Shown piece by piece: positions 13,435 through 53,974 of a stretch of DNA of 64,000 nt. The notes under the pieces are model-generated. The model was given only the letters and a program-made list of their open reading frames with translations. It searched no databases and had not been told where the DNA came from. This DNA is from Quercus robur (Eukaryota > Streptophyta > Magnoliopsida > Fagales > Fagaceae). How positions within the stretch are numbered: position 1 is the stretch's first letter; the number at the start of each line of letters is the position of its first letter. The position numbers and the translations under genes were made by a program. The stretch is taken from assembly GCF_932294415.1 (NCBI RefSeq), contig NC_065536.1:45171854-45235853 (forward strand). The letters are read 5' to 3'.

Positions 13435-13673
13435 TAATTTCTTTAATTCTGGGAAACTGCCCCAGGTGGCGTACACCTAAAATAATAGGTGTGTGCCTCC
13501 CAAGAATCAATGTTCATTGTTTTCTGGGAAAAATTTGTTTCACATTTTGGTCATTTTTCCTAGGTGTTGATCAAAGCTTTGTGATGTAGACCACTTAAAA
13601 GAAATATATGCCATTCTAATAGTAGCCCTAATTTCATTTATTTTCAAATTTTGGCTTTGTATAGTTTTATTTT

Positions 13674-13868
13674 GGCTAAAATCCAAAACTGACATTTTAA
13701 GTTTTAACTTTTGTCATTTCAATTCTCTAAGTGTTAGTTTTGTCATTTCAGTCCTCCAAGTTTCAAATTTTGTCAATTCAGTATTCGGTTACCTTTCAGT
13801 TAAGTGTTGTCATTAAACTGTTATTAATTAAAATTGTTATTAAAAAATGAAAATTTGTTATTAAAAAA
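13674..13868. mobile_element. Partial MULE-like terminal arm
   Basis: Begins GGCTAAAATCCAAAACTGAC and continues with 'gtcatttcagtcctccaag' and 'ttttgtcaattcag'. This is similar in order and wording to the terminal arm of the MULE at 21756, but more worn. It stops where the outer Helitron's CTAG end begins (13869), so the Helitron may have landed in it. The opposite end was not found with confidence. Confidence 0.4.
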
Positions 13869-14163
13869 CTAGCCTCTGATCACGTGCTCACGTGCGTGCT
13901 CAAAGGCTCTTCTATTTTTTGGGTAAGGGTTAAATTAGAGCATTTATTATAATTTGGGATTACTATATTTTCCAATCACAAAAAAAACCTAGGGGTGTGA
14001 TGAGTATCATGTGTGGAGAAATAATTTTTCATCACACCCTTAGGGTTTTTTTGTGATTGGAAAATGTAGTAATCCCAAATTATAATAAATGCTCTAAATT
14101 AACCCTTACTCAAAAAATAGAAAATCCTCTGAACATGTGCGTGAGCGCGTGCTCAGAGGCTAG
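13869..14163. repeat. Palindromic Helitron 3' terminus, outer copy
   Basis: A ~295-bp inverted repeat with arms of about 140 bp. Each arm ends in a GC-rich hairpin (around gcgtgagcgcgtgctc on one side and cacgtgctcacgtgcg on the other), a short spacer and CTAG. The arms also share the block gagcatttattataatttgg. The left CTAG is the true outer end; the inner CTAG at 14160-14163 mirrors it. Confidence 0.8.
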
Positions 14164-14506
14164 TATTCCGTAATTATTATCCATTTTTGCCTTTTTTTAA
14201 ATGCAATAATCAACGTGCTATTGATTAGAAGATGATGCAATAATTTAGTATTAACCTTTAGGGGGAGGGAAAAAAAAAAAAAAAGATCCTCTGAATAAAT
14301 CTTAAAAATAGTGCATATATTGAAAATGCATAATAAAATTGTAACAATAAAACTACTTACAAAATACATGTGATGACCTTTACAAAAGCTATTATGAAGA
14401 AGTTGATGGATTAATGTAGAAAATTGAAATATTTACATCAGATAAAACTGTAAATTAGTGCACTACATCTTAAACATGGAATAGGTGAACTTATTAATAT
14501 TATGCC

Positions 14507-15550
14507 CTACAGTGGAGAAGTTGGTGGAGCAATGCTATTTGTTTCACATTCTAATTGCTTTCCAGCAGCATTTGCCATGAACCTATGATACAAAATGTGT
14601 TAGTTTGTGTTATTAATAGAGACTTTAAAACGTACATAATAATGATAAGCACAATAAATATCAAGCATAAACTTGTAAAATGAAATATTTGAACTGACCT
14701 TGTGATGATATTGCATAGCTCCAAGTATGTGAAATTGTCTACTTCAGCTGGGGACTTGAAGAACTATCATTTAATTACCAAAATTTTTTAAAAAAATTTA
14801 TATAAAAACTATGTAATTAATTTTATTTTTTTTTAAAGTAGACGTGGTAATGATTTGTACCTGCTTTATTATCACATTGTCCTTGACTCTCATTTTCTTT
14901 TTGTCTTTACTGTTTTGGGTGTTGAAGATTGCATCGTCCTTGATTTTTTTTCTTCATATCTTTTTTTGCTCTTGGATGTTGGAAATCACATTGTCCTTGA
15001 TTTTCATTCTCTATTTGTCTCTGTTGGCATGAGTGTTAGAGATCACATCGTCCTTCATTTTTCCTTTGTCTTTATTCTTATGGATGTTGGAAACCTCATT
15101 GCTCTTGATAGTGATTTGTTGTTTGTCTTTGTTCTTGGAACTTCAAAATGAAGAAAAAAAATGTTTGTATATTAAGATTATCAATTAGTTATTTTTCTAT
15201 TTTAAAAAATAGTGTAACACATCTTTCCAATTCTTGTGACTCTAAAACTCATTTCACTTCTTTCCAAAGCTCTTTCTTGTCAGCTCGAACAGTGAATCCC
15301 TAACCAGGTGAATAAATTTGCAATTTTTGAACCTAACCCATACGCAGCATGACATTTTTAATATTAATTTTGATAAAACAATAGAAAGGGATGCTGATTA
15401 AAGATATCACTAAAAAGAAATATACCTTGTTATCAATGGCCTCCATGTTCGATATTGATTGATCATCCTTCTACTTCTCCCAATGAGCAGTAAGAACAAC
15501 ATGCACTCCATTATTTAGCATAGTGGACTCAATCCTCACATTTGAGTTGG
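14507..15550 (-). pseudogene. Unidentified accessory exon-like region, outer Helitron copy
   Basis: The - strand counterpart of 28445-29478. Frames include a stretch starting MPNSNVRIESTMLNNG, a lysine-rich middle with repeated 'KDN/KDD' words encoded by imperfect ~50-bp repeats, and an end reading GKQLECETNSIAPPTSP. Pieces are separated by GT...AG-bordered gaps. Internal stops are present in the most open frame, for example after the AHWEK block. I recognise no domain. Its presence at the same place in both copies makes it part of the element family rather than a single capture. Confidence 0.45.
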
Positions 15551-15671
15551 GCATCCTTCCTCTTACCAATTAATTGTATATAAAAAACAAAGATAGCATA
15601 ACCATTAAAATTTGTAAATTATTAAAATAAATCTATATGTAAGACAGTTCTTTTCAATTGTTAATTAATAT

Positions 15672-16695
15672 CTATGATGAAGGGAACAAAACATCTTTAT
15701 ATACAATATTTCTTGTGTGAACACCTTCCTCCTCAGGTATTCTTCCTTTTTGCACCAGTAGTTTTGTGGTGGATTGGGAGACTCCCCTTGACAACGCCAC
15801 ATATATTTGGCCATGACTAAAAACATGATTGGGAAGATAAATTCCAACAGTTGGAATTGTCTGACCTTGCGCTTTGTTTATTGTAAGTGCAAAGCTCAAA
15901 CGTACAGGAAGTTGTCGTCTGATCATTACAAATGGCAAGTGTACATTTTTTGTTGTCTTCAAAGGGATAATTGGAAAAAAAAAAACGCGTGTATCCACAT
16001 ATTGTCTAGTCAAAATTTTAGCGTCAATTACGTTATTAAAACATCCACGGCATATCAATCTTGTACCATTAGATAATCCGACTTTTGGATCTATATTGTG
16101 CAGCAACATAATTGGAGCACCCTTTTTTAGCCTTAATATATGTGGTGGTAAACCCCCTGGAGATATAGAATTTAGGAATTCTTGTTGATATAGATATTGC
16201 GTATCTCCTTCAACCTCATCAAAAGAATGTAACGTAAACTCATCTCCTAGAAACTGAGAAATTATCTTTGCATTAAGCTATTCAACATTATCATTTATAG
16301 GTGTTAGCAAAGCCCTATCAACCATATACCTTGCATCATTGGCATGTTTTTGCAAACTTAGAAAAACTTGATCAATCAAGTTGTATATAGAATGCTGACT
16401 CTCCCATTGCATTGCCATTGAAGGGGGTAGTTTAATCAAATCATTGATTATATATGGTTCATTCCCATCACCAATGTGTTGTATGTACTCAGCAAACTCT
16501 TCATTGTTTCATTGTTGATAGACCTCATATTCTGCTTCAAATGTAACACTTTAACATCTTTCCATAATGGGAACTTGACTATGCATGCATCAATCATTTC
16601 TGCCTTTGTACCCTTTGGAACAACCGGAAGTACTTAACGAAAATCTCCACCCAAAATTTGCACTTTACCACCAAAAGGTAAATTTACTTCCATAA
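15672..16695 (-). pseudogene. Helitron Rep/helicase, C-terminal part (outer copy)
   Basis: The - strand codes for the last third of the Pif1-like helicase of RepHel. Visible blocks are LSFALTINKAQGQTIPTVGI and VALSRG, the conserved closing motifs of this helicase family, and the end PSS before a stop at 15672-15674. Upstream parts carry stops and frame changes, so the gene is dead here. The N-terminal parts of the same gene lie in the other half at 30151-34418. Confidence 0.8.
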
Positions 16696-16730
16696 TCTAT
16701 ACTACTAATTAAGGGGCTTCCTCTATTTGG
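16696..16730 (+). repeat. 5' terminus of the inner Helitron
   Basis: TC at 16696-16697 followed by TATACTACTAATTAAGGGG, matching remembered plant Helitron 5' termini. It directly follows 'cttccataA' from the outer Helitron's helicase gene. Confidence 0.8.
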
Positions 16731-16906
16731 ATTCCTCATTTTTTATGTCTAAAATACCCACATCATACCCACTTACAAGTTTTCAACTAGCGGGGATAAA
16801 TATGTAAATTAAAACTCTTACACTTTAAGACCCACAAATTTACGTACGCTTTACAGTTTCTATCTCACTTTCTATCTCTCATTCTTCTTCAGATTGAAGA
16901 CATTTA

Positions 16907-17413
16907 GGGCACATTTGGTAGACTGTAATAGACACTGTAATGAAATAGATATTCTTATGGCATAATTATTCGATTGTTTGGTTATGTTTTTATTACAATG
17001 AATAGTTATTCCTTATGAATAGTTATTCTTCAAAATGAGGAATAACTATTCCTTATCAAAAGTACTGAATATTTATTCCTTCATCTTATGTAATAATTTT
17101 ATAAAATTTTTTTCTAAAAAGCCATTAGTTGCCACATCTTCAAAAAGAAAGAAAATAAAATTTCCTTGTTAATTATTAGCTCTGTTTTGAACACCCTAAA
17201 ACAAGTGTATTTTAGGAAATTTAACTTAAAAATGATTTAATTACATCTTCTTTTTATACTCTACTAAATTATAGATGTATATTCAGGATTCTATTCCTAA
17301 ATGGTCACCAAACTAATTAATAGTAATACTTATTTCATTTCTACTTAATGTATTCCTTGTAATATTTATTCCTATTCCCATGTAATAATTATTACAGTGT
17401 ACCAAACGTGCCC
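16907..17413. mobile_element. PIF/Harbinger-like MITE, 507 bp, TTA target duplication
   Basis: The left end GGGCACATTTGGTAGACTG and the right end ACAGTGTACCAAACGTGCCC are inverted complements. TTA flanks both sides (16904-16906 and 17414-17416). The interior repeats 'aatagttattcctta'. The 3-bp TTA duplication points to PIF/Harbinger. A relative's left end is at 41265. Confidence 0.75.
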
Positions 17414-17969
17414 TTAGTTTAGCTCTACATCCTCCTTTCTTTTTCTTTAGATTAAAGACATTTACTGTTAGAGGCTCCAACAAATTTTTAGGTTCTATCT
17501 TTTGCAAGTTCCTCTTTGTTTTCTTTTCTTTTGTTTATGATTGACTTTCTTTGAGTTCTACTTTTTTTTCTTTTTTTATTTATTTTATTTTTATGTGTAT
17601 CACGTTAACTTTTTTTTTCTTTTTTTTTTCAAATGTAATTTTGAAATGAATGGTTCTTTCATATACTCTACCACTGTACTTCTTAATAAATTGTCATTTC
17701 ATGTTGTAAGTATCGTGATCCAAAGATAGGGTGGCTTTATGCTACAAAAGAAGCATTTAAAATCATTTGTGAACAATTAAACAATATGGCTTCCCTTACC
17801 TCTTTTAGTAGCCTTTGTTTACATTTTATTTAAAAAATTTGAATTGAAATAAAAATAGTTACCACAGTACTCCCTGATTAATGATCAAAATATAAATGAT
17901 CAATTACTATTTCCTTCTCCTTCCTCACTTTTTTTTTTCCTTCTTCATATTTTTTTTTCTTTTTAAGAA

Positions 17970-18010
<41 letters not shown>

Positions 18011-18013
<3 letters not shown>

Positions 18014-18151
18014 ATCATTGTATATGTTTTTGGTGTTAAATTTTTTTAGTTTTTTTTACCATCATTGTATATGTTTTTGGTGTTAAATTTTTTTAGTTTT
18101 TTTTACCATCATTGTATATGTTTTTGGCATTAAATTTTTTTTATTTTTCTA
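18011..18151. repeat. 47-bp tandem repeat, three copies
   Basis: accatcattgtatatgtttt starts at 18011, 18058 and 18105, an exact 47-base period, and ends in T-rich sequence. Confidence 0.9.
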
Positions 18152-18334
18152 TTTAGGTATGTAGCAACCTTGAGTTCTACTATTTATTTTTTTATATGTA
18201 TCACGTTAACTCCTTTTTTTTTTCTTTTTCTTTTTTTTATTAAATGTAATTTTGAAATGTTAACTCCCTTTTTTTTCTTTTTCTTCTTTTTTTAAATGTA
18301 ATTTTGACACATTAACTCCCTTTTTTTTTAGATC

Positions 18335-19010
18335 CCCATTAGTTATTTATTTAAATAGTTGATGACGTGGTGATAAGATTTTAAAGAGTCCATGATAGAG
18401 TTAAATTCTAAAAAATCTTTATCTTTATTCTGAACATTTTAATAGGATTTTCAGGAAAAATGATCTCATCAAAATTTAAATCAAACACAAACTGTAACAA
18501 ACTTATGCTATTATCTTTAATAACATGCATGCTAACTTTGTTGATTAAATTTTTTTATTTTTTTATTTAGGTATGTAGCAACCTTGAGTTCTACCTTCTT
18601 CTTTTTTTTTAATACATGTTAACTCCCTTTTTTTTCTTTTTTTCTTTTTTAATGTAATTTTGAAATGTTAACTCCCTTTTTTTTCTTTTTCTTTTTTTTT
18701 TAATGTAAATTTGAAATATTAACTCCCTTTTTTTTTTCTTTTTCTATTTTTTTAAATGTAATTTTGACACGTTAACTCCCTTTTTTTTTTTCTTTTTCTT
18801 TTTTTCTTTTTTTAGATCTCCATTAGTTATTTATTTAAATAGTTGATGATGTGGTTAAATTCTAAAAAAATATTTATCTTTATTCTGAATAATTTTAATA
18901 GGATTTTCAGGAAAAATGATCTCATCAAAATTTAAATCAAACACAAACTCTAACAAACTTATGCTATTATCTTTAATAACACGCACGCTAACTTTGGTTT
19001 GTTGATTAAA
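18335..19010. repeat. Leader duplication, two copies about 490 bp apart
   Basis: The block from ccattagttatttatttaaa to acttatgctattatctttaa occurs at about 18335-18550 and again at about 18820-19010. The second copy lacks a short piece near 'gtgataag'. The outer Helitron also holds two copies (near 35850-36005 and 36275-36331). Confidence 0.8.
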
Positions 19011-19504
19011 GTTTTTATTATTATTATTATTATTTTAAAATACTTGGTTTAACCCTAATTCTTTTATCTCTCTCAGGTTCACATACGCACAAATTTTTTT
19101 GGGTTGCATTGAGGAGTCATTGGAATGGAATATTAGATAAGTTTGGGTGAGAGACTTTACAAGAATTAATATATGTATTAAACCTCACATAAAGTGGTTG
19201 TTATCTAAGAAATTGTTGTAAAAAAATTTCTTTTGTAATAGAAACTATATTTATCATTTGTATAATTCTATGTCAAATTCAATTTCAATTTTTTTTATAA
19301 GTATTAATTTACTACTTCATAAAAAATGTTACGTACCTTTTTCTCAATTTTAAAGGTTGTTGATATATTTGAAATTTAAACTATTTTTAACTTTTGTTAT
19401 GGATGTGTAGTAAGTGGCTAACTTTTAGAACTAAAAAACTAAATTTTTGGATTAAACAAAAATTGATAAATGTTATTAATTTTTTTAAAAAGAACAACAA
19501 CACC

Positions 19505-21020
19505 AAAAGAAACGTGTATCTCCTGCCATAAAATTTGAAATCTAAACTTTTATTTACTTATGTTATGGATGTGTAGTAAATGGCTAAATTTTAGGATTAG
19601 AAAAAAAATTATAACTGCCATACAAAAAAGTTGAAAAAAAGAACAACATCAACAACACCAAAAAGGGGGTGGGGGGGGGGGGGGGAATGGATGTGTAGTT
19701 ACTAAATTTTAGGATCCTTCTAGGTTCTAGGAGCATTTCCTTTAACAAAAAACTTATTAATTTACTTATGTACCTTATAAAAATGCAATATAAGTATTGA
19801 TAATTAAGTTTGTCAATTTTAAACTCATTGGATACTCAACTATTGTAAAAATTAGTAGAAGCATCCAAATCCCAATCCAAAAATGCAAGCCATGTATCAG
19901 GTGGTTGGGTAGTTTTTAAACGTGGGATAGAAAGTGGGATTTTTTTAAAATAGTACATGGATAGAGCATGGGATTTTTTTTAAAGTGTAGTCTTTTTTTT
20001 TTTTTTTTTTTTTTTTGATAAACTTTTAAATAAGAATAGGGTCACATCAATTCCCCACCTTAATCTTTTAAATTTCCCTAAATTTTAGCCTTTTATTTTC
20101 TTTCAAAATTAGATATGTTAGTGCCTAAATATAAGGATATGTATGGAGAAGTTATAGTAGTGGTTTATAGTAGGAGTCTTTTTTTTTTCCCCCAAAATAT
20201 GGAAGAGATTTAAAAAGAAAAAAAAAAGAAAAAAAAAAAAAAGAGAAGAAGAAGAGGAAAACATGAATTTGAACTTAAACATGAATTTGGATGTTGTTCC
20301 TACTGCTATGAACTTAAATTACATTCAATGTACTTTTGTTCAATAAAAAATTTAGAAGAATAGCACTGACGAATTAAAATAAAAGTTCATTATAATTCCT
20401 ATTGGGTTTTTGTTAAACCACCTTTAATAATGCTTTACAGTATTTTTTTTTTCTTCTCAACAAACAATCATGAAGTTTTTTTACAATTTTTTTTTCTAGA
20501 TACCTCTAATCATTAATTCCCAATTGTATTAGCCTTTTGTTAAGGTTAAAGCACCATTTAATACTTTATTAAAAAAAATCTCAAAATACAATTGTCGTTT
20601 TATACATTTAACGTGTATCTCTTGCAATAAAATTTTCAATTTAAGCTTTTATTTACTTGATATGGATGTGTAGTAAATGGCTAAATTTTAGGATTAGACA
20701 AAAAATGACAACCGTCACACATAAAATTTGAAAAAAAGAACAACATCAACAACACCAAAAAGGAAAAAACACAAAAAAAAAAAAAGGAAAAAAAAAAACG
20801 TGGATGGTTAGTTATTAAATTTTAGGATCTTTTTAGGAGCATTTCCTTTAACAAAAATCTTATTAATTTACTATTCCATAGAAAATGTTACGTACCTTAT
20901 AAAATACAATATAAGTATTGATAATGATAGTCTGTCAATTTCAAACTCATTGGATACTCACTAATGTAAAAAATAGTAGAAGAATCCAAATCCCAATCCA
21001 AAAATGCAAGCCATGTATCA
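19505..21020. repeat. Leader duplication of about 400 bp, offset about 1.1 kb
   Basis: The series 'acgtgtatctc', 'gatgtgtagtaaatggctaa', 'attttaggat' and 'caaatcccaatccaaaaatg' runs through 19505-19910 and recurs at 20610-21020. The outer Helitron shows only one equivalent, so the second copy probably arose, or was lost, after the two copies separated. Confidence 0.75.
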
Positions 21021-21755
21021 GTATGTCCCACGTAATTAAGGGTATTTTTTTTTTTTTTTTTTTATGGATAATTAAGGGTACTTTAGTAAAGAAGAGATTA
21101 AAAAGTTTTAACGTAAAACAACAATAATTTTCTTTCAAACTTCGACACCTCTTTCCATATTTGTTTGATATAATATTTATATCCGGTAAAGTGAGAAATT
21201 AAATGTACATTCAAATCCTTTAAATACCCTTAAAGACTTTCATCTTCCTTATCACCTCCACAGCTCTCAACTTCTAAACTCACTAAGCCACATCTTCTGT
21301 CTCTTACACTTACACACAAACACACAAAGTTACAAACAGACACATTATTTTCTCATCCAAATTAACCAAAATGGCATGGTTTTGTTTTAAAGTGTGTGAA
21401 ACGAGTACGGAAAATTTAGTCTAATTTTAACTATAAATGATTTTGTGAAATAAAGTAGACATTTTCTAAATTATATTTTCGTCATATTGATCTAACAAAT
21501 CATAACCTAAATTTAAATATATTCTCAAAACTTCTACCTAAAATAATAATTTAATAATTTTAAGAAGTGTAACTTATTTCTCCTATTTTACTAAAAATTT
21601 ATCACAATTACACATATTATTACAATTCTTGCATGTGATTAATTTGTTCAAAATTAGTTCACTTTATTGAGGTTTTAATACACCCTATTTGTGACAAGGA
21701 AAAATCTATTAATTATTGTGTATGTTTACGCAACGACCACTATAAATTTAATTTA

Positions 21756-21972
21756 GGCAAAAATGCAAAACTGACCCTCTAACTTTCACATTTTTTTTAT
21801 TTCAGTCCTCTAACTTTCAGTTTTGTCAATTTAGTCCTCTAACTTTTAATTTTTGTTAATGCAGGATTCCGTTACAACTCAATTAGTGACTGTCATTAAA
21901 ACTCCTGAAACACCGTTTTTCTTTTCTTTCTTTTTTTTAAATTCGAAATTAAAATAAATAAGAAAAATCTGA

Positions 21973-22004
<32 letters not shown>

Positions 22005-22802
22005 AGGAAAAGGAGAAACTTCCCCTGAAATCAAAACAAATCAAAGAAAAATCTAGCACAAAACCCAGAAAGAAATCAAAACCAAAATGCAAAAAACATT
22101 AAAATCAAGAAACTAAGGCAAACCCATATGAATTTATGGTGGGAGGAGAAGGAACTTAGTCAAATGTTGGCAAACCCAGATGAACAATATCATGCAACGG
22201 TGGCCATATCCACCGATCTTTGCAAGACAAAGATGGCAACATCAAAAACCCAAACCATCGCCCACCACTGTCCTTCATGCAAGAGAGGGGAGCTGATCTG
22301 TGCAAGAAAGAATGGCCGATCTTTGCAAGACAGAGAGAGCAACGTCAAAAACCCAGATGAACGATTCAAATGAATAGATGGGTTTCTATTGGAGTATTTA
22401 AGGATTTATATTGTGGGTTGGAAAATTAAAAATGTTTAAGGCTTTCTTCTGGTATAAGTGCTTTTGTTTAAAAGAAATCTTGATCTGTCTTTTTTTTTCC
22501 CCCCCCTAATATTATGCACTGTCACTGCAGTTCGATGATGGAGTTCTGAATTAGTTTCTTTCTTCTTCTTCTTCTTCTTCTTTTTTTACAGATTTTTTTC
22601 TTTAAATTCCGAAATTTATTAAAAAAAGAAGAAGTCAAAATGACATCGTTTTGGCTCAATTGACGGCAACCCCTAACTGAGTTCTAACGGAGTCCTGCAT
22701 TGACAAAAATTGAAAGTGAGAGGACTGAATTGACAAAACTGAAAATTAAAGGACTGAAATGAAAAAATGTGAAAATTAGAGGGCCAATTTTGCATTTTTG
22801 CC
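21756..22802. mobile_element. Non-autonomous MULE, 1047 bp, 9-bp target duplication
   Basis: The ends GGCAAAAATGCAAAACTGAC and GGCCAATTTTGCATTTTTGCC begin terminal inverted repeats of roughly 130 bp. A 9-bp duplication TTTAATTTA flanks it (21747-21755 and 22803-22811). The outer Helitron has the empty site near 34420-34440 with one copy of the target. The interior holds A-rich sequence and an 81-codon open frame (22128-22373) made of two similar halves around 'gatctttgcaagaca'. It shows no transposase domain. Confidence 0.9.
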
Positions 22803-22822
22803 TTTAATTTAATTATGTAGAA

Positions 22823-25800
22823 ATGAGTTCGCAAAATACAGCAATGGTGAATACCGATAACATAGAACATCGTCGACAATGATGGAGATATTATGCTCGC
22901 TTGAGAAGACAACGAGAAGACAATGAAAGCAGAAATATTCGATTGGCAAGACGTCGTGCTAATTACTCAAGACAAAGACAACAAACTTTGGGTGGTGATC
23001 ACATTTTGGTGGGAGGCCCAGCAAATTTAAATGAAGAAGATGTTGTACATTCTAATTCAACATCAACAAACCCATCACTAATACCACCTAATCAAGAGGC
23101 TGGACAAAGTCATCGGCTTACACATATCCATAACTTGGCACGTAATATGCCAGTTGAGCATAGGGCTATGCAAGAAGTCAATGGTGAGATTATAGTTTTG
23201 TATCTTTAAACATTCTTCATTGCTTCGAATCTTATTATTTTGAGAAAATTTATAGTTTCTGGCATATTAGTTATATGTCAATGTATACAAAGATACTAAG
23301 TCAATGTTTATAATATTAAATTTAGGTTTCCCTCCAACCTATTCAACTATAACGGCAAACAACATTGTGGCTGGACCAAGTCATATAACTTCTAATGTTA
23401 ATACTGGTAAGTTTTATATAATATATTTATAAAGCATTAACCATTATTTTTTATATATAATTATACCAATTGAGCATTCTATATAAGTACATTGCAGTTA
23501 CAGAAAGAATTGAAGGAGCTGAAAATATAGTTGTGCAAAACCAAGGGGATGCCTATAAAGAACAAGGTTCATTACTCAATGTCACAATTTTTATCTTCAA
23601 TTTCATGTTTATAATATCCTTCTATAAAGCTTTCATCATTATTTTATATATATAATTACACCAATTGAGCATTTTCTATAATTACATTACAGGTGTAGAA
23701 AGAAATGAAGAAGTTGAAAATATAAGTGATCAAAATCACGGGGATGGCTACAGAGAGCAAGGTTTGTTACTTAATGTCATTATTTTAATTTCAATTTACA
23801 TGTTTATCATTATCAATTTTATTATTTGTTAACAAGCTGCTTATTCGAAACGTTATTAATATTTTGCTTATTTCACAACATAATATTTGGTACAATTTTA
23901 ATATTTTCTTTCACAACTATTATAACACTTTTTATCACTAATTTTTTCCTCAAAATAAAAATTAGGTGCTGTCAACACATTTGATGGTACTGCACATGTA
24001 ATAAATTGTATGTGAGGCAGATACAATTGTGCAAAGGATTATAAAGAAGATATAGAGACCATTAGGTACCAACTACCACAACCAAAGACATGTTGCTTTT
24101 GTAATACCCGTTTGTTCCATCGAGAGACATCCTCGATGTGTTGCAAGGATGGAAAAATATCCTTACCCAACATACCAATTTGTCTTGAATTTAGGGAGCT
24201 CATTTGTGAGCAAACACCATGGGGCAAACATTTCAAGCAATATATACGGTTTTACAACAACATGTTTGCATTTACCTCAATGGGTGTGCACATGGATGAA
24301 AGCGTGGCCTTGAATAGTCGAGGAATATATACATTTTGTGCCCAAGGTGCCATCTATCATAGAATTGGTAGTCTTTTATCACATACACCTCTTAGTGTGC
24401 GACATCTACAATTGTATATCTACGACACCGGTCTTGAAATACAACGCAGAATGTCTTAATCTATAGAAGCTCACGAAGATATTGTGCGACTTATTCAAAG
24501 GATTTTAGATATGCATAACCCATTTGTAGAGAAATTTTGTCAACTATCTTGAAGTCCAAATTTACATCAATGTAAACTCCTCATTAAAGAACAACCTCTA
24601 AACCAACCTCATTATTGCCTTCCCAGTGCTTCCCAAGTGGCAGTTATTATTGTAGAAGGAGAAGAAGCTGGTCATTTAAGTGGTAGAGAAATTTTGGTTC
24701 AAATGTTTGGTGGTAATTTGATTAATGTTCAAGATACAGCAGGATATTATGATCCATTGTAGTACCCAATACTTTTCCATTTGGAACATATGGATGGGAT
24801 ATCAACACATGTGACGCTAATAGAAGTTAAGTATCATGTTGTGATTATTATGCATACATCTTTCATGTAATAGTTTTATTATTTTCAAATTGTTTTACTT
24901 CAAAATGACGCTTACACTATAAAATAACTGAACCTACATCCATTTTTACTAATGTCCCAGGTTCGCGACGATGCTCTATCAATGATTTGGTATGGCGGAC
25001 ACCTTTCACAACAGTATTTTGTTAATAATTATGTAAAAATTGAAACACACAAGCTTAGGTTGTTTGAGCACAATCAAGATTCAATTAGGGCAAATCTGTA
25101 CAATGGCCAACAAGATGCTTTCCATGAAGGAGAGAGTGATACTGGTAATGTAAACTTTACACTTGAAATTTACATTACTTTATTAATGGCAAATTGGTAT
25201 CAATATTTATTAATGACCCAACTTTTTTATCTTATATTTAGGAAATGTTGGACATAGAACCATTCTACCTTCATCATTTGTAGGAAGCCCACGTGATATG
25301 ATCCAACGATTTCAAGATGCAATGTCATTGGTTCAAAAGTTTAGGAAGCCAGATTTATTCATCACAATGACGTGTAATCCAAGATGGGAAGAAATCCAAA
25401 ATGAGCTTTTACCTGCACAAACCGCACAAGATCGTCCATACTTCCTTGCAAGAGTTTTCAAATCGAAATTTGAAGAATTGAAGGATGATATTGTGGTCAA
25501 GGGGGTTCTTGGAAGAGTTATTGTATATGTGCAGGTCTTTGAGTTCCAAAAAAGGAGTTTACCACATGCACATATGCTTATAATTCTCGATGAAGATGAT
25601 AAATTGCATAATTTAGAGGATTACGATCCAGTTGTTAAAGAAAAAATTCCGTGTAAGGAGGAACAACCTCAGTTACATAAAGCTGTTCTGAAGCATATAA
25701 TACATGGTCCTTGTGGAGTACAAAATCCAAGATCATCGTGTATGAAAAATGGGCAATGTAAAAAAGGATACCCAAAGCCTTTCTTGCCAGAAACCTACCA

Positions 25801-28300
25801 AGGCAATGACTCATATCCTGTTTACAAATGATATGATACTAATAATCTCATGCCAATGAATGATCATTGCAGGATTATGGTAGACAACACTTGGGTTGTT
25901 CCATATAATCTTTGGTTACTGCTGAAATATAAGTGTCATATTAATGTTGAAATATGTTGCAATATCAAGAGTGCAATGTACTTATATAAATATGTGTATA
26001 AAGGCCCAGATCGTGTCTCTATGGAAGTTAGACCAGGCCCAAATTATGATGAGGTCCAATAGTACATTGATGCAAGATGGGTATGTGCTCTAGAGGCATG
26101 TTGGAAGATATTTTCTTTTCCTATGTATCGAATGTACCCTAACGTTTTTTGTTTGCAAATTCATCTTCCAGATAGACAATAGGTACCTTTTAGACCACAT
26201 GAACCTATTGCTAATGTTTTGGAGCGAAGTAAAAAAACAATACTCACTGAATTTTTTTATATGAATATGATTGATCATAATGCACGAAATTATCTATATA
26301 GAGAGTTCCTTGAGCATTATTGTTGGAATTATAAAAACAAAACATGGACATGAAGAAGATCTCATAAAAAAGTTGTGGGCAAGATATATACTATTTCTTC
26401 ATTTGATGGAGAGAAGTTCAATCTGCGTGTTCTTCTTAATCATATCAAGGGGCCAACAGGATTTGACGATTTATTGACTGTGAATGTGATAACCTATCCA
26501 ACTTTTAAGTAAGCAGCTAAACAAAGGGATTTACTAGAGAATGATAATAGCATACGATAGTGTCTACTTAAGGCAAGAGATATTCGAATTCCATCAGTTT
26601 TAAGAAGATTGTTTGCAACAATATTGGTATTTTGTTTACTAACTGGAGTAAGAGAATTGTGGAATTAGTTCTATCCATATATGGTAGAAGATTACCCATC
26701 AAAATCTGTTACAACAGAGACACATCGTACAAATAAACTTCTCAATGATTTAGAGGCATTACTCTTGCAATATGGAAAGCATATTACAGAGTACGATTTG
26801 CCAATTTCAATTGGAGAATGTGACAATGATTTAGCTGTACCAAGACTCATACAAGATGAGCTAACTATTCCTAATGTAGATGAAGAATTCACTTTAATTG
26901 AGAAGTTGAATAACGACCAGAGAGTTGCATATGAGACAATTATAACAGTTATTGATTGTAAGGAAAGCATGATATTCTTCGTCGATGGGCCAGGGGGAAC
27001 TAGGAAAACATTTTTGTATCGCACAATATTGGCAACCTTGAGAAAAGTCGGTCACATTGCAATTCCCACAGCTACATCTGGCATAGCAGCAACATTACTC
27101 CCTGGTGGAAGAACAATGCATTCCAAGTTTAAGATTCATTTAACTCTCGATGTTTCATCTACTTGCTCAATAAGTAAACAATCAAACTTAGCTAAACTTA
27201 TTAGACGTGCCACCATAATTATTTGGGATGTAGCCCTAATGGTAAATTGACTTGCACTTGAATCTTTAGATAGAACATTTAGAGATATTATGGAAGTAAA
27301 TTTACCTTTGGGTGGTAAGGTGCTAATTTTGGGTGGAGATTTTCGTCAAGTACTTCCGGTTGTTCCAAAGGGTACAAAGACAGAAATGATTGATGCATGC
27401 ATAGTCAAGTCCCCATTATGGAAAGATGTCAAAGTGTTACATTTGAAGCAGAATATGAGATCTATCAACAATGAAGAGTTTGTTGAGTACATACAACACA
27501 TTGGTGATGGGAATGAACCATATATAATGGATGATTTGATTAAACTACCCCCTTCAATGGCAATGCAATGGGAGGGTCAACATTCTATATACAACTTGAT
27601 TGATCAAGTTTTTCCAAGTTTGCAAGAACATGCCAATAATGCAAGGTATATGGTTGATAGGGCTTTGCTAACACCTACAAATGATGATGTTGAACAACTT
27701 AATGCAAAGATAATTTCTTAGTTTCCAGGAGATGAGTTTATGTTACATTCTTTTGATGAGGTTGAAGGAGATACGCAACATCTATATCAACAAGAATTCC
27801 TAAATTTTATATCTCCAGGGGGTTTACCACCACATATATTAAGGCTAAAAAAGGGTGCTCCAATTATGTTGTTGCGCAATATAGATCCAAAAGCCGGATT
27901 ATGTAATGATACAAGATTGATATGCTGTGGATGTTTTAACAACATAATTGACGCTGAAATTTTGACTAGATAATATGTGGGTACACGCGTTTTTTTGCCA
28001 AGAATCCCTGTGAAGACAACAAAAAATGTACACTTGCCATTTGTAATGATCAGACGACAATTTCCTGTATGTTTGAGCTTTGCACTTACAATAAACAAAG
28101 CGCAAGGTCAGAAAATTCCAACTGTTGGAATTTATCTTCCTAATCATGTTTTTAGTCATGGCCAATTATTTATGGCGTTGTCAAGGGGAGTCTCCCAATC
28201 CACCACAAAACTATTGGTGCAAAAAGGAAGAATACCTGAGGAGGAATGTGTTCACATAAGAAATATTGTATATAAAGATGTTTTGTCCCCTTCATCATAG
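22823..28300 (+). pseudogene. Helitron Rep/helicase gene (RepHel), inner copy, decayed
   Basis: Reads on the + strand from an ATG at 22823 to a stop at 28298-28300. In order there are an arginine-rich start (LARRRANYSRQRQQ), two small duplicated exon-like pieces (about 23490-23770), a Cys-rich N-terminal domain (CFCNTRLFH...CCKDGKISLP, about 24095-24150), the Rep nuclease (FITMTCNPRWEEI; PHAH of the HUH motif near 25560; YLYKYVYKG with the catalytic Tyr pair near 25980), and a Pif1-like helicase (26680-28300). The Walker A reads GGTRKT instead of GGTGKT and the Walker B region reads WDVALM instead of WDEAPM. In-frame stops occur, for example at 22880, 25829, 26060, 27248 and 27719. Several are TGA where the outer copy has CGA. 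RepHel normally nicks and unwinds DNA for rolling-circle transposition. Confidence 0.85.
23430..23775 (+). repeat. Duplicated small exon-like unit in the RepHel N-terminal part
   Basis: Two neighbouring units of about 200 bp share an intron-like part ending 'ccaattgagcatt...acag' and a coding-like part (AENIVVQNQGDAYKEQG and VENISDQNHGDGYREQG) followed by an AAG-GTTxxTTACT donor-like border. The same pair exists in the outer Helitron (about 33495-33780, - strand). Confidence 0.7.
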
Positions 28301-28444
28301 GTATTAATTAACAATTGAAAAGAACTGTCTTACATATAGATTTATTTTAATAATTTACAAATTTTAATGGTTATGCTATCTTTGTTTTAATATTTCATTT
28401 CTTGAAGTTTTTTATATATACAATTAATTGGTAAGATGAAGGAT

Positions 28445-29478
28445 GCCCAATTCAAATGTGAGGATTGAGTCCACTATGCTAAATAATGGAATGCATGATT
28501 TTCTTACTGCTCATTGGGAGAAGTGGAATCAATATCAAACATGGAGGCCATTGATAACAAGGTATATTTCTTTTTAATGATATCTTTAATCAGCATCCCT
28601 TTCTATTGTTTTATCAAAATTAATATTAAAAATGTCATGCTGTGTATGGGTTAGGTTCGAAAATTGCAAATTTATTCACCTGGTTGGGGATTCACTGTTC
28701 GAGCTGACAAGAAAAAGCTTTGGAAAGAAGTGAAATGAGTTTTAAAGTCACAAGAATTGGAAAGGTGTGTTACGCTATTTTTTAGAATAGGAAAATAACT
28801 AATTGATAATCTTAATATACAAACATTTTTTTTCTTCATTTTGAAGTTCCAAGAACAAAGACAAACAACAAATCACTATCAAGAGCAATGAGGTTTCCAA
28901 CATTTATAAGAATAAAGACAAAGGAAAAATGAAGGACGATGTGTTCTCTAACACTCATGCCAACAGAGACAAACGGAAAATGAAAATCAAGGACAATGTG
29001 ATTTCCAACATCCAAGAGCAAAAAAAGATACGAAGAAAAAAAAATCAAGGACGATGCAATCTTCAACACCCAAAACAGTAAAGACAAAATGAAAATGAGA
29101 GTCAAGGACAATGCGATAACAAAGCAGGTACAAATCATTACCACGTCTACTTTTAAAAAAAAAATTAATTACATAGTTTTCATATAATTTTTTTTAAAAA
29201 AATTTGGTAATTAAATGATAGTTCTTCAAGTCCCAAGCTGAAGTAGACCATTTTACATACATGGAGGTATGCAATATCATAACAAGGTCAGTTCAAATAT
29301 TTCATTTTACAAGTTTATGTTTGATGTTTATTGTGCTTATTGTTATTATGTACGTTTTAAAGTCTCTATTAATAACACAAACTAACACATTTTGTATCAT
29401 AGGTTTATGGAAAATGCTACTGGAAAGCAATTAGAATGTGAAACAAATAGCATTGCTCCACCAACTTCTCCACCGTAG
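28445..29478 (+). pseudogene. Unidentified accessory exon-like region, inner Helitron copy
   Basis: Lies 145 bases after the RepHel stop, on the same strand. Pieces bordered by GT and AG are seen at about 28447-28560 (MPNSNVRIESTMLNNGMHDF..., WEKWNQYQTWRPLITR), 28655-28764, 28847-29127 (lysine-rich, imperfect ~50-bp repeats around 'atcaaggac(g/a)atg'), 29230-29288 and 29402-29478 (GKQLECETNSIAPPTSPP, stop). More than one frame stays open over the first two pieces, so the true reading is uncertain. The same parts occur at the same place in the outer copy. No domain is recognised. It could be a second element gene, a captured host gene shared by the family, or RepHel 3' sequence. Confidence 0.45.
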
Positions 29479-29777
29479 CTAGCATAATATTAATAAGTTC
29501 ACCTATTCCATGTTTCAGATGTAGTGCACTATTTTACAGTTTTACCTTATGTAAATATTTCAGTTTACTACATTGATCCATCAACTTCTTCATAATAGCT
29601 TTTGTAAAGGTCATCACATGTATTTTGTAAGTAGTTTTATTGTTACAATTTTATTATGTATTTTCAATATATGCACTATTTTTAAGATTTATTCAAAGGA
29701 TCTTTTTTTTTCCTCCCCCTAAAGGTTAATACTAAATTATTGCATCATCTTCCAATCAATAACACGTTGATTACAGC

Positions 29778-29817
<40 letters not shown>
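29778..29817. repeat. Poly-A tract, about 40 bases
   Basis: An almost pure A-run inside the inner Helitron, between the exon-like region and the palindromic end. The outer copy has only a short run at the matching place (near 14195). Confidence 0.9.
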
Positions 29818-29819
<2 letters not shown>

Positions 29820-29848
29820 AGGCAAAAATGGATAATAATTACAGAATA

Positions 29849-30150
29849 CTAGTCTTTGAGCACACGCTCACACACGTGCTCAAAGGCTCTTCTATTTTTT
29901 CGATAAGGATTAATTTAGAGCATTTATTATAATTTGGGATTACTACATTTTCCAATAAAAAAAAAAAAAAAAACCCAGGGGAGTGATGAAAAATTATTTC
30001 TCCATACAAGATACTCATCACACCCCTGGGTTTTTTTTTGTGATTGAAAAATGTAATAATCCCAAATTATAATAAATGCTCTAAATTAACCTTTACCCAA
30101 AAAATAGAAAAGCCTCTAAGCACGCGCGTGAGCGTGTGCTCAGATGCTAG
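29849..30150. repeat. Palindromic Helitron 3' terminus, inner copy
   Basis: A 302-bp inverted repeat. The inner CTAG (29849-29852) plus hairpin mirrors the terminal hairpin (30119-30140) plus CTAG (30147-30150). The arms share 'aaaggctcttctatttttt', gagcatttattataatttgg and 'aaaacccaggg'. It is homologous to 13869-14163. Confidence 0.85.
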
Positions 30151-33100
30151 GATCTCTAAATGTTCTATCTAAAGATTCAAGTGCACGAAGATTTACCATT
30201 GGGGCTTCATCCCAAATAATTATGGTGGCACATCTAATAAGTTCAACAAAGTTTGATTGTTTACTTACTGAGCAAGTAGATGAAGCATCGGGAGTTAAAG
30301 GAATCTTAAACTTGGAATGCGTTGTTCTTCCACCAGGGAGTAATGTTGCTGCTATGCCAGATGTAACTGTGGCAATTGCATTGTGACCGGCTTTTCTCAA
30401 GGTTGCCAATATTGTGAGATACAAAAATATTTTCCCAGTTCCCCCTGGCCCATCAACGAAGAATATCATGCTTTCCTTATGATCAATAATTGTCATGATT
30501 GTCTCATATGAAACTCTCTAGTCGTTATTTAACTTCTCAATTAAAGTGAGTTCTTCATCTACATTAGGAATAGTTAGCTCATCTTGTATAAGTCTTGGTA
30601 CAGTTGAGTCATTGTCACATTCTCCAGTTGAAATCGGTAAATCATACTCTGTAATATGTTTTCCATGTTGCAAGAGTAATGCTTCTAAATCATTGAGAAG
30701 TTTATTTGTACGATGTGTCTCTGTTGTAACAGATGTTGATGGGTAATCTTCTACCATATATGGATAGAACTCATTCCACAATTTTCTTACTCCAGTTGGT
30801 AAACAAAATACCAATATTGTTGCAAACAATCTTCTTAAAGCTGATGGCATTCGAATGTCTCTTGCTTCAAGCAGACACTATCGTATGCTGTTATCATTCT
30901 CTAGTAAAACCCTTTGTTCAACTGCTTGCTTAAAAGTTGGATAGGTTATCCCATTCACAGTCAATAAATCGTCAAATCCTAGACATGATTAAGAAGAACA
31001 CACAGATTGAACTTCTTTCCATCAAATGGTGAAACAGTATATATCCTGTCCACTACTTTTTTATGAGATCTTCTTCGTGTCCATGTTTTGTTTTTATAAT
31101 CCCAACGATAATGCTCAAGGAACTCTCTATATAGATAATTTTGTGCATCATGATCAATCATATTCATATAAAAAAATCCAATGAGCATTGTCTTTTTACT
31201 TCGCTCCAAAACATTAGCAATAGGTTCATGTGGTCTAAAACATACCTGTTGTCTATCTGGAAGATGAATTTGCAAACGAAAAATGGCAGGGTACATTCTA
31301 TACATAAGAAAAGAAAATATCTTCCAACATGCCTCTAGAGCACATACCCATCTTGCATCAATGTACTGTTGGACCTCATCATAATTTGGGCCTGGTCTAA
31401 CTTCCATAGAGACACAATCTAGGCCTTTATACACATATTTATATAAGTGCTTTACACTGATGATACTACAACATATTTCAACATTAATATAGCAGTTATA
31501 TTTCAGCAGTAACCAAGGATCATATGGAATAACCCAAATGTTGTCTACCATAATCCTGCAATGATCATTCAATGGCACAGGATTATTAGTATCATATCGT
31601 TTGTAAACAGGATATGAGTCATTGCCTTGGTAGGTTTCTGGCAAGAAAGGCTTTGGGTATCCTTTTTTACATCGCCCATTTTTCATGCACAATGATCTTG
31701 GATTTTGTACTTCGCAAGAACCATGTATCATATGCTTCAAAACAGCTTTATGTAACTGAGGTTGTTCCTCCTTACACGGTATTTTTGCTTTAACAACTAG
31801 ATCGTAATCCTCTGGATTATGCAATTTATCATCTTTATCGAGAATTATAAGCATATGTGCATGTGGTAAACCCCTTTTTTGGAACTCAAAGGCAGACATA
31901 TACAATAACTCTTCCGAGAACCCCCTTGACCACAACATCATCCTTCAATTCTTTAAATTTCGATTTGAAAACTCTTGCAAGCAAGTCTGGACAATCTTGT
32001 GCGGTTTGTGCAGGTAAAATCTCATTTTGGATTTCTTCCCATCCTAGATTACACGTCATTATGATGAATATCTCTGGCTTCCCAAACTTTTGAACCAATG
32101 ACATTGCATCTTGAAATCGTTGGATCATATCGCGTGGGCTTCCCACAAATGATGAAGGTAGAATGGTTCTATGTCCAACATTTCCTAAATATAAGATAAA
32201 AAAGTTGGGTCATTAATAAATATTGATACCAATCTGCCATTAATAAAGTAATGTAAATTTCAAGTGTAAAGTTTACATTACTAGTATCACTCTCTCCTTC
32301 ATGGAAAGCATCTTGTAGGCCTTGGTACAGATCTGTCCTAATTGAATCTTGATTATGCTCAAACCACCTAAGCTTGTGTGTTTCAATTTTTACATAATTA
32401 TCAACAACATACTGTTGTGAAAGGCGTCTTTCATACCAAATCATTGATAGAGCATCATCGTGAGTCTTGGACATTAGTAAAAATAGATGTAGGTTCAGCT
32501 ATTTTATAGTGTAAGCGTCATTTTGTAGTAAAAAAAATTGAAAATAATAAAACTCTTACCTAAAAGATGTATGCATAATAATCACGATATGACACTTTAC
32601 TTCTATTAGCATCACGTGTGTTGATATCCCATTCATATGTTCCAAATGGGAAAAGTATTGGGTATTGCAATGGATCATAATATCCTGTTGTATCTTGAAC
32701 ATTGATTAAATTACCACCAAACGTTTGAACCAAAATTTCTCTGCCACTTAAATTCCTTTGAATAAGTCGCACAATATCTTAATGAGCTTCTATAGATTGA
32801 GACATTCATCGTTGTATTTCAAGATTGGTGTCGTAGATATACAATTGTAGATGCTGCACACTTAGAGGTGTATGTGGTAAAAGACTACCAATTCTATGAT
32901 AGATTACACCTTGAGCACAAAATGTATATATTCCTTGACTATTCAAGCCACGCTTTCATCCACGTGCACACCCATTGAGGTAAATGCAAACATGTTATTG
33001 TAAAACTGTATATATTACCTGAAATGTCTGCCTCGTGGTGTTTGTTCACAAATGAGCTCCCTAAATTCAGGACAAATTAGTATGTTGGGTAAGGATATTT

Positions 33101-34418
33101 TTCCATCCTTGCAACACATCGAGGATGTCTCTCGATGGAACAAACAGGCATTATAAAAGCAACATGTCTTTGGTTGTGGTAGTTGGTACCTAATGGTCTC
33201 TATACCTTTCTTTAAAATCCTTTGCACAATTGTATCTGCCTCACATACAATTTATTACATGTACAGTACAATCAAATGTGTTGACAGCACCTAATTTTTA
33301 TTTTGAGAAAAACTTTAGTGATAAAGAGCGTTATGATAGTTGTGAAAGAAAATATTAAAATTGTACCAAATATTATGTTGTGAAATAAGCAAAATATTAA
33401 TAACGTTTTGAATATGTAGCTTGTTAACAAATAATAAAATTGATAATGATAAACATGTAAATTGAAATTAAAATGATGACATTAAGTAATAAACCTTGTT
33501 CTCTGTAGCCATCCCCGTGATTTTGATCATTTATATTTTCAACTTCTTCATTTCTTTCTACACCTATAATGTAATTATAGAAAATGCTCAATTGGTGTAA
33601 TTATATATATTAAATAATGATGAAAGCTTTATAGAAGGATATAAACATGAAATTAAAGATAAAAATGGTGACATTGAGCAATGAACCTTGTTCTCTATAG
33701 GCATCCCCTTGGTTTTGCTCTACTATATTTTCAACTCTTTCAATTCTTTCTGTAACTACAATGTACTTATATAAAATGCTCAATTGGGGTAATTATATAT
33801 AAAAAATAATGGTTAATGCTTTATAAATATATTATATAAAACTTACCAGTATTAACATTAGAAGTTATATGACTTGGTCCAGCCTCAAAATCATTTGCCA
33901 TTATAGTTGGATAGGTTGGAGGGAGTCCTAAATTTAATACTATAAAGATTGACTTGGTATCTTTGTATACATTGACATACAACTAACATGCCAAAAACTA
34001 TAAATTTTCTCAAAATAATAAGATTCGAAGCAATGAAGAATGTTTAAAGATACAAAACTATAATCTCACCACTGACTTCTTGCATAGCCCTATGCTCAAC
34101 TGGCATATTGCGTGCCAAGTTACGGATATGTGTAAGCCGATGATTTCGTCAGCCTCTTGATTAGGTGGTATTAGTGATGGGTTTGTTGATGTTGAATTAG
34201 ACTATACAACATCTTCTTCATTTAAATTTGCTGGGCCTCACACTAAAATGTGATCACCACCCAAAGTTTGTTGTCTTTGTCTTGAGTAATTAGCACGACA
34301 TCTTGCCAATTGAATATTTCTACTTTCATTGTCTTCTCAAGCGAGCATAATATCTCCATCGTTCTCGATGACGTTCTATGTCATCGGTATTCACCATCGT
34401 TGTATTTTGCGAACTCAT
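30151..34418 (-). pseudogene. Helitron Rep/helicase, N-terminal two thirds (outer copy)
   Basis: Starts at an ATG (34418-34416) matching the inner copy. It shows the same parts in the same order: arginine-rich start, duplicated small pieces, Cys-rich domain (about 33230-33020), and Rep nuclease with GLPHAHMLIIL (HUH) and LYKYVYKG in one open frame of 320 codons (31941-30979). The helicase start has Walker A GGTGKI (T to I) and an intact WDEAPM. It is cut at 30151 by the inner Helitron. The gene is broken by several stops and frame changes elsewhere, including a TGA in the first coding piece. The Rep core is better kept than in the inner copy. Confidence 0.85.
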
Positions 34419-36331
34419 TTCTACATAAAATTAAATTAATTTATAGTGGTCGTTGCGTAAACATACACAATAATCAATAGTGTCAATGCTGTTCTTCTAA
34501 ATGTTTTATTGAACAAAAGTACAATGAATGTAGTTTAAGTTCATAGTAGTCGGAACAGCATCAAAATTCACGTTTAAGTTCAAATTCGCGTTTTCCTCTT
34601 TTTTCTTTTTTCTTTTTGAATCTCTTCCATATTTTTGGGGAAAAAAAAAAAAAAAAAAAAGAGTCCAACTATAAAACCACTACTATAACTTCTCCATCCA
34701 TATCCTTATATTTAGGCACTAACATATCTAATTTTGAAAGAAAATAAAAGGCTAAATTTTAGGGAAATTTAAAAGTTTAAGGTGGGGAATTGATGTGACC
34801 CTATCCTTATTTAAAAGTTTATCAAAAAAAGAAAAACTACACTTTAAAAAAAAATCCCATGTTCTATCCTTGTACTATTTAAAAAAAAAAAAAAAATCCG
34901 CTTTCTATCCCACGTTTTAAAACTATCCAACCACTTGATACATGGCTTGCATTTTTGGATTGGGATTTGGATGCTTCTACTAATTTTTACAATAGTTGAG
35001 TATCCAATGAGTTTAAAATTGACAAACTATGATTATCAATACTTATATTGCATTTTTATAAGGTACATAAGTAAATTAATTAGTTTTTTGTTAAAGGAAA
35101 TGCTCCTAGAAGGATCCTAAAATTTAGTAACTACACATCCATGTTTTTTTCCCCCTTTTTGGTGTTGTTGATGTTGTTCTTTTTTTCAACTTTTATGTAT
35201 GGCAGTTATAATTTTTTTTTTAATCCTAAAATTTAGTTTTTTAATCCTAAAATTTAGCCATTTACTACACATCCATAACATAAGTAAATAAAAGCTTAAA
35301 TTTCAAATTTTATGGCAAGAGATACACGTCTCTTTTGGTGTTGTTGTTCTTTTTAAAAAAATTTATTAACATTTATCAATTTTTTTAAATCCAAAAATTT
35401 AGTTTTTTAGTCCTAAAAGTTAGCCACTAACTACACATCCATAACAAAAGTTAAAAATAGTTTAAATTTCAAATATATCAACAACATCAACAACCTTTAA
35501 ATCTGAGAAAAAGGTACGTAACATTTTTTATGAAGTAGTAAATTAATACTTATAAAAAAAATTTTAATTGAATTTGACATAGAATTATACAAATGATAAA
35601 TAGAGTTTCTATTACAAAAGAAATTTTTTTACAACAATTTCTTAGATAATAACCACTTTATGTGAGGTTTAATACATATAATAATTCTTGTAAAGTCTCT
35701 CACCTGAACTTATCTAATATTCCATTCCAATGACTCCTCAATGCAACCCAAAAAATTTGTGCATATGTGAACCTGAGAAAGATAAAAGAATTAGGGTTAA
35801 ACCAAGTATTTAAAAAAAAAACTTTAATCAACAAACCAAAGTTAGCGTGCGTGTTATTAAAGATAATAGCATAAGTTTGTTAAAGTTTGTGTTTGATTTA
35901 AATTTTGATGGGACAATTTTTCCTAAAAATCCTATTAAAATTATTCAAAATAAAGATAAAGATTTTTTGAATTTAACCACATCATCAACTATTTAAATAA
36001 ATAACTAATGGAGATCTAAAAAAAAAAAAAGGAGTTAACGTGTCAAAATTACATTTAAAAAAAAAAAAAGAAAAAGAAAAAAAATGGGAGTATAACATTT
36101 CAAAATTACATTAAAAGAAAAAGAAAAAAAAAAAAAGGGAGTTAACATTTTAAAATTACATTAAAAAAAAAAAAGAAAAAAAAGGGAGTTAATGTGTATA
36201 AAAAAAAAAAAAAAAAAAAAAAAAGTAGAACTCAAGGTTGCTACATACCTAAATAAAAAAAATAAAAAAAATTTAATCAACAAACCAAAGTTAGCGTGCG
36301 TGTTATTAGAGATAATAGCATAAGTTTGTCT
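34419..36331 (-). other. Leader of the outer Helitron
   Basis: Non-coding, A-rich on the + strand. It matches parts of 18490-20400 and 21715-21755 of the inner copy in reverse, lacking the MULE and the 20.4-21.7 kb duplicated part. Contains several A-runs and 'ggagttaac' blocks. Confidence 0.7.
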
Positions 36332-41772: not shown

Positions 41773-42328
41773 TAAAATAAGTGGTGACTTCATGTAAACC
41801 CTCAATCTAGGGGGACAAATGACTCGAGTCGAGCCACACATTTTAAGAGGCACTTAACACAACTTCATCCATTCACATGGGTCTTGACTTGAACCAAAAG
41901 AATGAGTCTACTTAGGGTTGCGATTTTTCACAAAAGCCAGTACCATCATGTTGTCCTAAGGTTAAGCAACAACTATTATCCATAAAGATTGATTTATTGT
42001 TTTATAGTGAATTTTGGTGTTTTTATGACGATTTTTTGAAAGGGGTTTCTATCCTAAACTATACTCCATTTTATACTTTATTTCTTAAATTATCAAAATG
42101 TACGATTGACCCTTCAAAGTTATAATTCAATAACTTAACCCCTTAACTATTTGTTTTCGGTTAACTCTAAAGGAATTTAGTATTAGAAGACCAATTTTTA
42201 AATGACAAAGGGTAAATTAGTCTTTTAACACTACATTTTGTTAGACTTAATAGAGGAAGTGACGAGAGCATGACAGAGCAAGGGGCCGGGCCTCCCCTGA
42301 CCCCCAAAAAAATAAACAATTAGAAGGT
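41773..42328. other. Intergenic, no gene seen
   Basis: AT-rich sequence. 'ggccgggcctcccctgaccc' (42283-42302) looks like a piece of an interspersed repeat interrupted by the following MULE. No open frame is supported. Confidence 0.45.
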
Positions 42329-42337
42329 AAATTTACT

Positions 42338-42930: not shown

Positions 42931-42939
42931 AAATTTACT

Positions 42940-43031
42940 ACTAAAATTATATTTGGGCCCCCTCTCCTTCCAAGAAAATATCAGCCCAGCCCAACGAGGA
43001 AAGTATCAGCCGTTTAACAAACCTAATTCCG

Positions 43032-53970: not shown

Positions 53971-53974
53971 ACAA

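Follow-up and report, generated by a model that had tools for sequence, protein, structure and literature searches.

In a 64,000-nucleotide stretch of the Quercus robur genome (contig NC_065536.1, positions 45,171,854 to 45,235,853; hereafter the window), a Helitron has, to judge from the sequence, almost certainly inserted in opposite orientation between an A and a T of the PIF1-helicase gene of another member of its family, with neither duplication nor loss of target bases. The inner Helitron occupies positions 16696-30150 of the window on the + strand (13,455 bp), while the interrupted outer Helitron lies on the - strand, with its 5' part running from 30151 to about 36348, where similarity to the inner copy ends, and its 3' part at 13869-16695. 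This nesting explains the large inverted repeats of the window. As Helitron self-insertion has already been published, the nesting is ordinary and adds a new case to those on record; greater importance attaches to the long 3'-terminal palindrome shared by both copies, which bears both on how Helitrons end transposition and on how many short elements arise from a few RepHel-bearing ones.

Self-comparison of the window yields two inverted matches lying end to end, namely 13869-16696/30150-27287 and 30152-32753/27286-24674. When the outer pieces were joined (32753 to 30151, then 16695 to 13869) and aligned to positions 24674-30150 of the inner copy, as the initial annotation had proposed, a single alignment of 5,509 columns and 91.94% identity was obtained, in which both junctions coincide and no gap occurs within 100 columns of the joint. 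Across the junction, the outer helicase gene reads ...TTTAGAGATC | TTATGGAAG... on its own strand; the inner copy reads straight through the matching place, at about 27287, as ...TTTAGAGATATTATGGAAG..., with equal length and one substitution, located exactly where the A|T target should have its T. At the left junction (16695/16696), the inner element starts as A | TCTATACTAC, while at the right junction (30150/30151) its terminal CTAG meets a G. The 3' ends of both copies stop at the identical CTAG base, at 30150 in the inner copy and at 13869 in the outer, where a T follows on the - strand. Taken as a whole, the seamless junction, the Helitron termini at the exact breakpoints, the common 3' boundary, and a 5' boundary that recurs elsewhere in the genome argue for one nesting event, in agreement with the initial annotation, which had described a Helitron within the helicase gene of a same-family Helitron and outer pieces meeting exactly in that gene.

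The recurrence of the 5' boundary was established by searching the assembly (785.7 Mb in 42 contigs) with the 210 bases at the 5' end of the inner copy, which gave 575 first-look candidates, of which 40 were scored and 30 loci extracted, one being the inner copy itself and some sharing flanking sequence. Of these 30 loci, 25 have A in front of the projected start, three have C, and two have G, and four begin with something other than TC; the inner 5' boundary is thus one that recurs. The remaining features are those of a canonical Helitron (Helitron1). For example, the inner termini, TCTATACTAC...CTAG, fit the TC/CTRR pattern, the outer copy showing the 3' CTAG only. An A|T target is indicated by the A before most starts and by a T after the palindromic 3' end at 36 of 39 loci, counts to be read with the commonness of A and T here in mind (A makes up 0.345 of the inner copy), and the nesting site shows no duplicated bases. 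Both copies also have the short 3' hairpin: a stem lies within their final 48 nt and comes as close as 2 nt to the end, where 10-12 nt is usual. The TT target of Helitron2/Helentron elements was rejected on the same flanking bases, as A precedes the 5' start and T follows the 3' edge at most extracted loci. Helitron2/Helentron elements also carry terminal or subterminal inverted repeats or palindromes at both ends; here the long palindrome is at the 3' end, and no match between the inner 5' end and this palindrome was seen among the 80 longest self-comparison matches listed, a set in which short repeats were not searched.

Both copies match the Rep and PIF1-type helicase domains (PF14214 and PF05970) as well as Helraiser, and the reading frames of both are broken. 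The inner Rep (25217-25831, + strand) matches Pfam Helitron_like_N at E=5.6e-44, and its best relative of solved structure is Helraiser (7lcc, E=1.6e-64). The inner PIF1-type helicase (26669-27721, + strand) carries an in-frame TGA at 27248-27250, with PIF1 matches on either side of it (E=5.2e-35 and 5.8e-27), and its frame region reads through the site at which the outer copy is interrupted. In the outer copy, the N-terminal helicase piece (30140-30517, - strand) covers positions 10-128 of the 223 in the PIF1 profile (E=5.5e-37; Helraiser, E=1.7e-18), its open frame entering the inner element by 11 bases, stop included, and the C-terminal piece, Pif1_2B, lies at 15672-16277 on the same strand (E=9.5e-19). 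The insertion point therefore falls within the PIF1 domain, with PIF1-type matches on both sides. The outer Rep is represented by the C-terminal part of a broken frame (30979-31944, - strand; Helitron_like_N, E=5.5e-05, below the curated cut-off). Relatives were also sought in viral contigs, where a protein search matched the pattern in six stretches and confirmed none, and a DNA search with the core returned none.

Pooled comparison of inner and outer codons gave a synonymous divergence (dS) of 0.063, a nonsynonymous divergence (dN) of 0.059, and a dN/dS of 0.95 (Fisher p 0.71), from five segments that overlap by some 350 bases, so that some codons were counted twice. This ratio speaks against selection on the coding regions since the two copies split, and they have diverged roughly as non-coding DNA. 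The insertion itself probably dates from not long after that split.

Several observations weigh against the simple form of this history. The left target base is A, as the initial annotation had it, but the right-hand base is G on the + strand; at the corresponding position the inner copy carries T, so that an A|T target stands only if this base has changed. The outer copy also differs from the inner copy more on one side of the junction than on the other: its 5' half has a mismatch rate of 184/2601 and its 3' half one of 148/2796 (p 0.0065). With flanking windows of 300 columns, the figures are 169/2400 ahead of the junction and 108/2400 past it (chi-square p = 0.0002), the junction window (21/300) and the last, palindrome-bearing window (35/298) being excluded. 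A single outer element predicts no such step, which may instead reflect gene conversion or a mosaic origin of one copy or the other. Finally, the 5' terminus of the outer copy was not found by pattern search beyond 36331 or by sensitive alignment; similarity fades at 36329 in the self-comparison or at 36348 in the sensitive alignment, without a TCTATACTAC-like 5' end, and the earlier placement of the element's boundary at 36331 cannot be kept.

The large inverted repeats would likewise have resulted from a genomic inversion, or from recombination between Helitron copies in inverted orientation, and the divergence step near the junction would sit with such an origin. Yet it is very improbable: inversion would not place TC and CTAG termini at the breakpoints with no base lost or gained, and the inserted piece begins like family members at other loci. 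Although repeats of about 92% identity, such as these, are prone to misjoins, an assembly join is hardly credible, as it would not hit transposon termini exactly on both sides of two copies that differ at 5-7% of aligned bases and of which the inner holds a private Mutator-like element (MULE)-like insert. As to mechanism, Rep and helicase would have moved the inner Helitron into place by rolling-circle strand transfer, the route published for Helraiser; the right-hand T of the target would later have mutated to G, and the outer copy may have been damaged at its 5' end either before or after the insertion.

What the initial annotation called a hairpin at the inner 3' end proved to be a far longer structure, while its TCTATACTAC start and CTAG end stood. 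Each copy terminates in a palindrome with CTAG at both edges, of 295 bp in the outer (13869-14163, - strand) and 302 bp in the inner (29849-30150, + strand). Folded as single-stranded DNA, the two reach -116.1 kcal/mol (13865-14170) and -100.2 kcal/mol (29842-30155), values matched by none of 100 shuffles in either case. A short stem of the usual Helitron kind is found in each palindrome arm, near each edge; the palindrome of this family is two Helitron 3' ends placed tail to tail. A genome search with it yielded 1,398 first-look candidates, and 40 of these were scored. In 39 loci, taking a single palindrome per locus, edges were set by a simple pattern rule, with left and right assigned by the better-scoring strand; the left CTAG is clean in 32, and A precedes it in all 32, a count on which the commonness of A also bears. 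Considered as a miniature inverted-repeat transposable element (MITE), the palindrome showed no common target duplication by eye at the 39 edge pairs, a weak test in that many flanks are Helitron sequence.

In 17 of the 39 loci, the listing shows Helitron body adjoining an edge of the palindrome, and this body does not always end at the same place. The palindrome sits at the standard 3' junction (window position 14164) in L001, which is the outer copy, and in L013, L021, L034, and L039. It sits at an internal point of the body corresponding to 20921 in L019, L025, L035, and L043, and apparently likewise in L036, where the edge was placed differently, and at other internal points in L040 (23310), L020 (23418), and L010 (23832). 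In this tally, the body does not reach the edge in L033 and L037, and no point is assigned to L024 or L030. The uninterrupted body reads A^T at 20921, 23310, and 23418 and A^C at 23832; a weaker fifth attachment, in L016 (81.5% over 119 columns), corresponds to A^A. Given that AT makes up 0.108 of the dinucleotides in the inner copy, A^T at three of four points has p 0.005, and at three of five, p 0.011. At ten further truncation points, the palindrome lies at the joint in L078, L079, and L081 (23418) and in L085 (23310), while L082 and L084 join inside an arm and L077, L080, L083, and L086 join other sequence. Because several loci share each of the points 20921, 23310, and 23418 and differ in their downstream sequence, the short forms appear to have transposed.

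A palindrome with Helitron body on both sides was found neither among the 40 scored copies (43 candidates) of one 381-bp stretch, three of which carry inserts there of about 1.0-1.6 kb that the comparison did not include, nor at the ten truncation points. A search for empty sites, made among the extracted loci only, matched other palindromes or 5' ends and gave no empty site.

The palindrome's CTAG (CTAA in L035) was also seen to abut a family 5' end lacking its first few bases in L009, L011, L018, L026, L035, and L040, the palindrome concerned in L040 being the second of that locus. In addition, three 5' ends on the same strand of contig C6 (L072-L074, near 34219466, 34221483, and 34223500) are spaced exactly 2,017 bp apart, possibly as a head-to-tail array. 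Helitron-to-Helitron joining thus recurs in this family, as two reports describe for others (PMC5148889, PMC3288121).

The two arms of the palindrome have evolved in concert. Six of the 43 modules had arms with no definable limits and were dropped; among the remaining 37, the left-arm and right-arm consensus sequences were identical except at five loop-edge columns, where the arms were cut differently. In 35 copies (L028 and L029 having been dropped as well), derived variants shared by both arms of the same copy numbered 54, against 24.7 expected (standard deviation 4.7), a value reached by none of 5000 re-pairings; for transversions alone there were five, against 1.2 expected, and 33 of 5000 re-pairings reached five. 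The test is inexact, since related copies (L017, L030) contribute several variants and older copies share more by chance.

The loop, for its part, is found in both orientations relative to the Helitron body. At the standard junction, the outer copy, the inner copy, and L039 have one orientation and L013, L021, and L034 the opposite one. L016 and L024, with 283 columns of common flank at 95.4% identity, are opposite to each other as well, and so, at 23418, are L020, L078, and L079 relative to L081 (read by a fuzzy match with three errors). Orientation is constant in all five members of the 20921 group, and in L011 together with the two modules of L015; L085 and L014 were unclear in the analysis that covered 23418, for which the side bearing the Helitron body was entered by hand from edge listings, L014 being labelled F in another. 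Among 54 readable modules, pairs sharing adjacent flank agree in loop orientation in 29 cases and are opposite in 17, the latter comprising four at the standard junction, L016/L024, four at 5'-end joints, and eight in overlapping or tandem palindromes. From these counts it follows that loop inversion happens, but not at every step. It is rarer than a strict flip/flop cycle predicts, and gene conversion and stem-loop inversion in the chromosome remain candidates.

An explanation that we consider somewhat probable is that the long palindrome is simply the family's fixed 3' end rather than a portable unit, with arms and loop altered by gene conversion and stem-loop inversion in chromosomal DNA. 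It accords with Helitron sequence beside the palindrome edge in 17 of the 39 loci (the remaining flanks mostly lacking an assignment), with the failure to see Helitron body continuing on both sides, and with constant loop orientation within several subfamilies, such as that of the 20921 junction. It fits less well with attachment at several internal points of the body, A^T at three of the four resolved, and with the A before every clean left CTAG. These same features make it tempting to suggest a different role, which we regard as doubtful: the palindrome may be a portable, self-copying terminator that joins Helitron bodies at A^T, re-ends them, and so makes short lineages, while hairpin-templated copying, of the sort seen at parvovirus ends, keeps its arms identical and sometimes inverts its loop. 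That no body-flanked palindrome was seen counts against such portability. Were it true, transposing short Helitron lineages would have a one-step origin, and a terminator with co-evolving arms and an inverting loop would allow the idea of hairpin-templated copying at a Helitron end to be tested.

The MULE-like insertion of the inner copy, at 21756-22802, is flanked by a 9-bp target duplication (TTTAATTTA, at 21747-21755 and 22803-22811), and the outer copy holds the uninterrupted, empty site. A smaller, PIF/Harbinger-like insertion with duplicated TTA lies near the inner 5' end, at 16907-17413; both class names are presumptive, given from general features. Beside the outer 3' end, 13665-13817 is similar to an arm of the MULE-like element, and within the outer 3' part, a diverged tandem array with a unit of about 57 bp occupies 14871-15061 and is related to repeats of the inner copy. 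Farther along are a fragmented gene for a POT/PTR2 family transporter (39220-41153), a stretch of 645 bp with 69% self-complementarity that contains repeats of about 21 bp (42310-42954), a minisatellite with an 81-bp unit in 6.5 copies at 90% matches (51856-52378), and integrase and reverse transcriptase pieces of a long terminal repeat (LTR)-type retroelement on the - strand (53004-55243).

In the open-licence Helitron literature, we did not find any element described as ending in a long 3' palindrome whose loop inverts, and the family's 3' end is a variant in that sense. One analogy is with parvoviruses such as adeno-associated virus (AAV), which combine an HUH Rep with terminal palindromes whose arms are kept identical and which occur in two orientations. 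By that analogy the oak family would resemble them, but here the palindrome is at one end only and loop inversion is occasional. With Helraiser/Helibat, the family shares a RepHel protein, TC...CTAG termini, an A|T target, and a 3' hairpin, which is the terminator in Helraiser; that hairpin is a 19-bp palindrome 11 nt from the end, whereas here a short stem lies within a palindrome of about 300 bp that includes a mirror-image 3' end (PMC4778049). Helitrons inserted in Helitrons are likewise known from maize, where nested insertions later moved with several termini, although the nested cases there measure 1.1-2.7 kb, and the sections of the report available to us describe no long palindromic 3' end (PMC3288121). 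Finally, self-insertion has been reported for Helitrons of Fusarium oxysporum, in an account that discusses nested, composite, and opposite-orientation cases; as in the oak window, one Helitron lies within another, but the Fusarium elements are non-canonical and Helitron2-like and the nested example is non-autonomous, whereas here both are of the RepHel type and one cuts the helicase gene of the other (PMC5148889).

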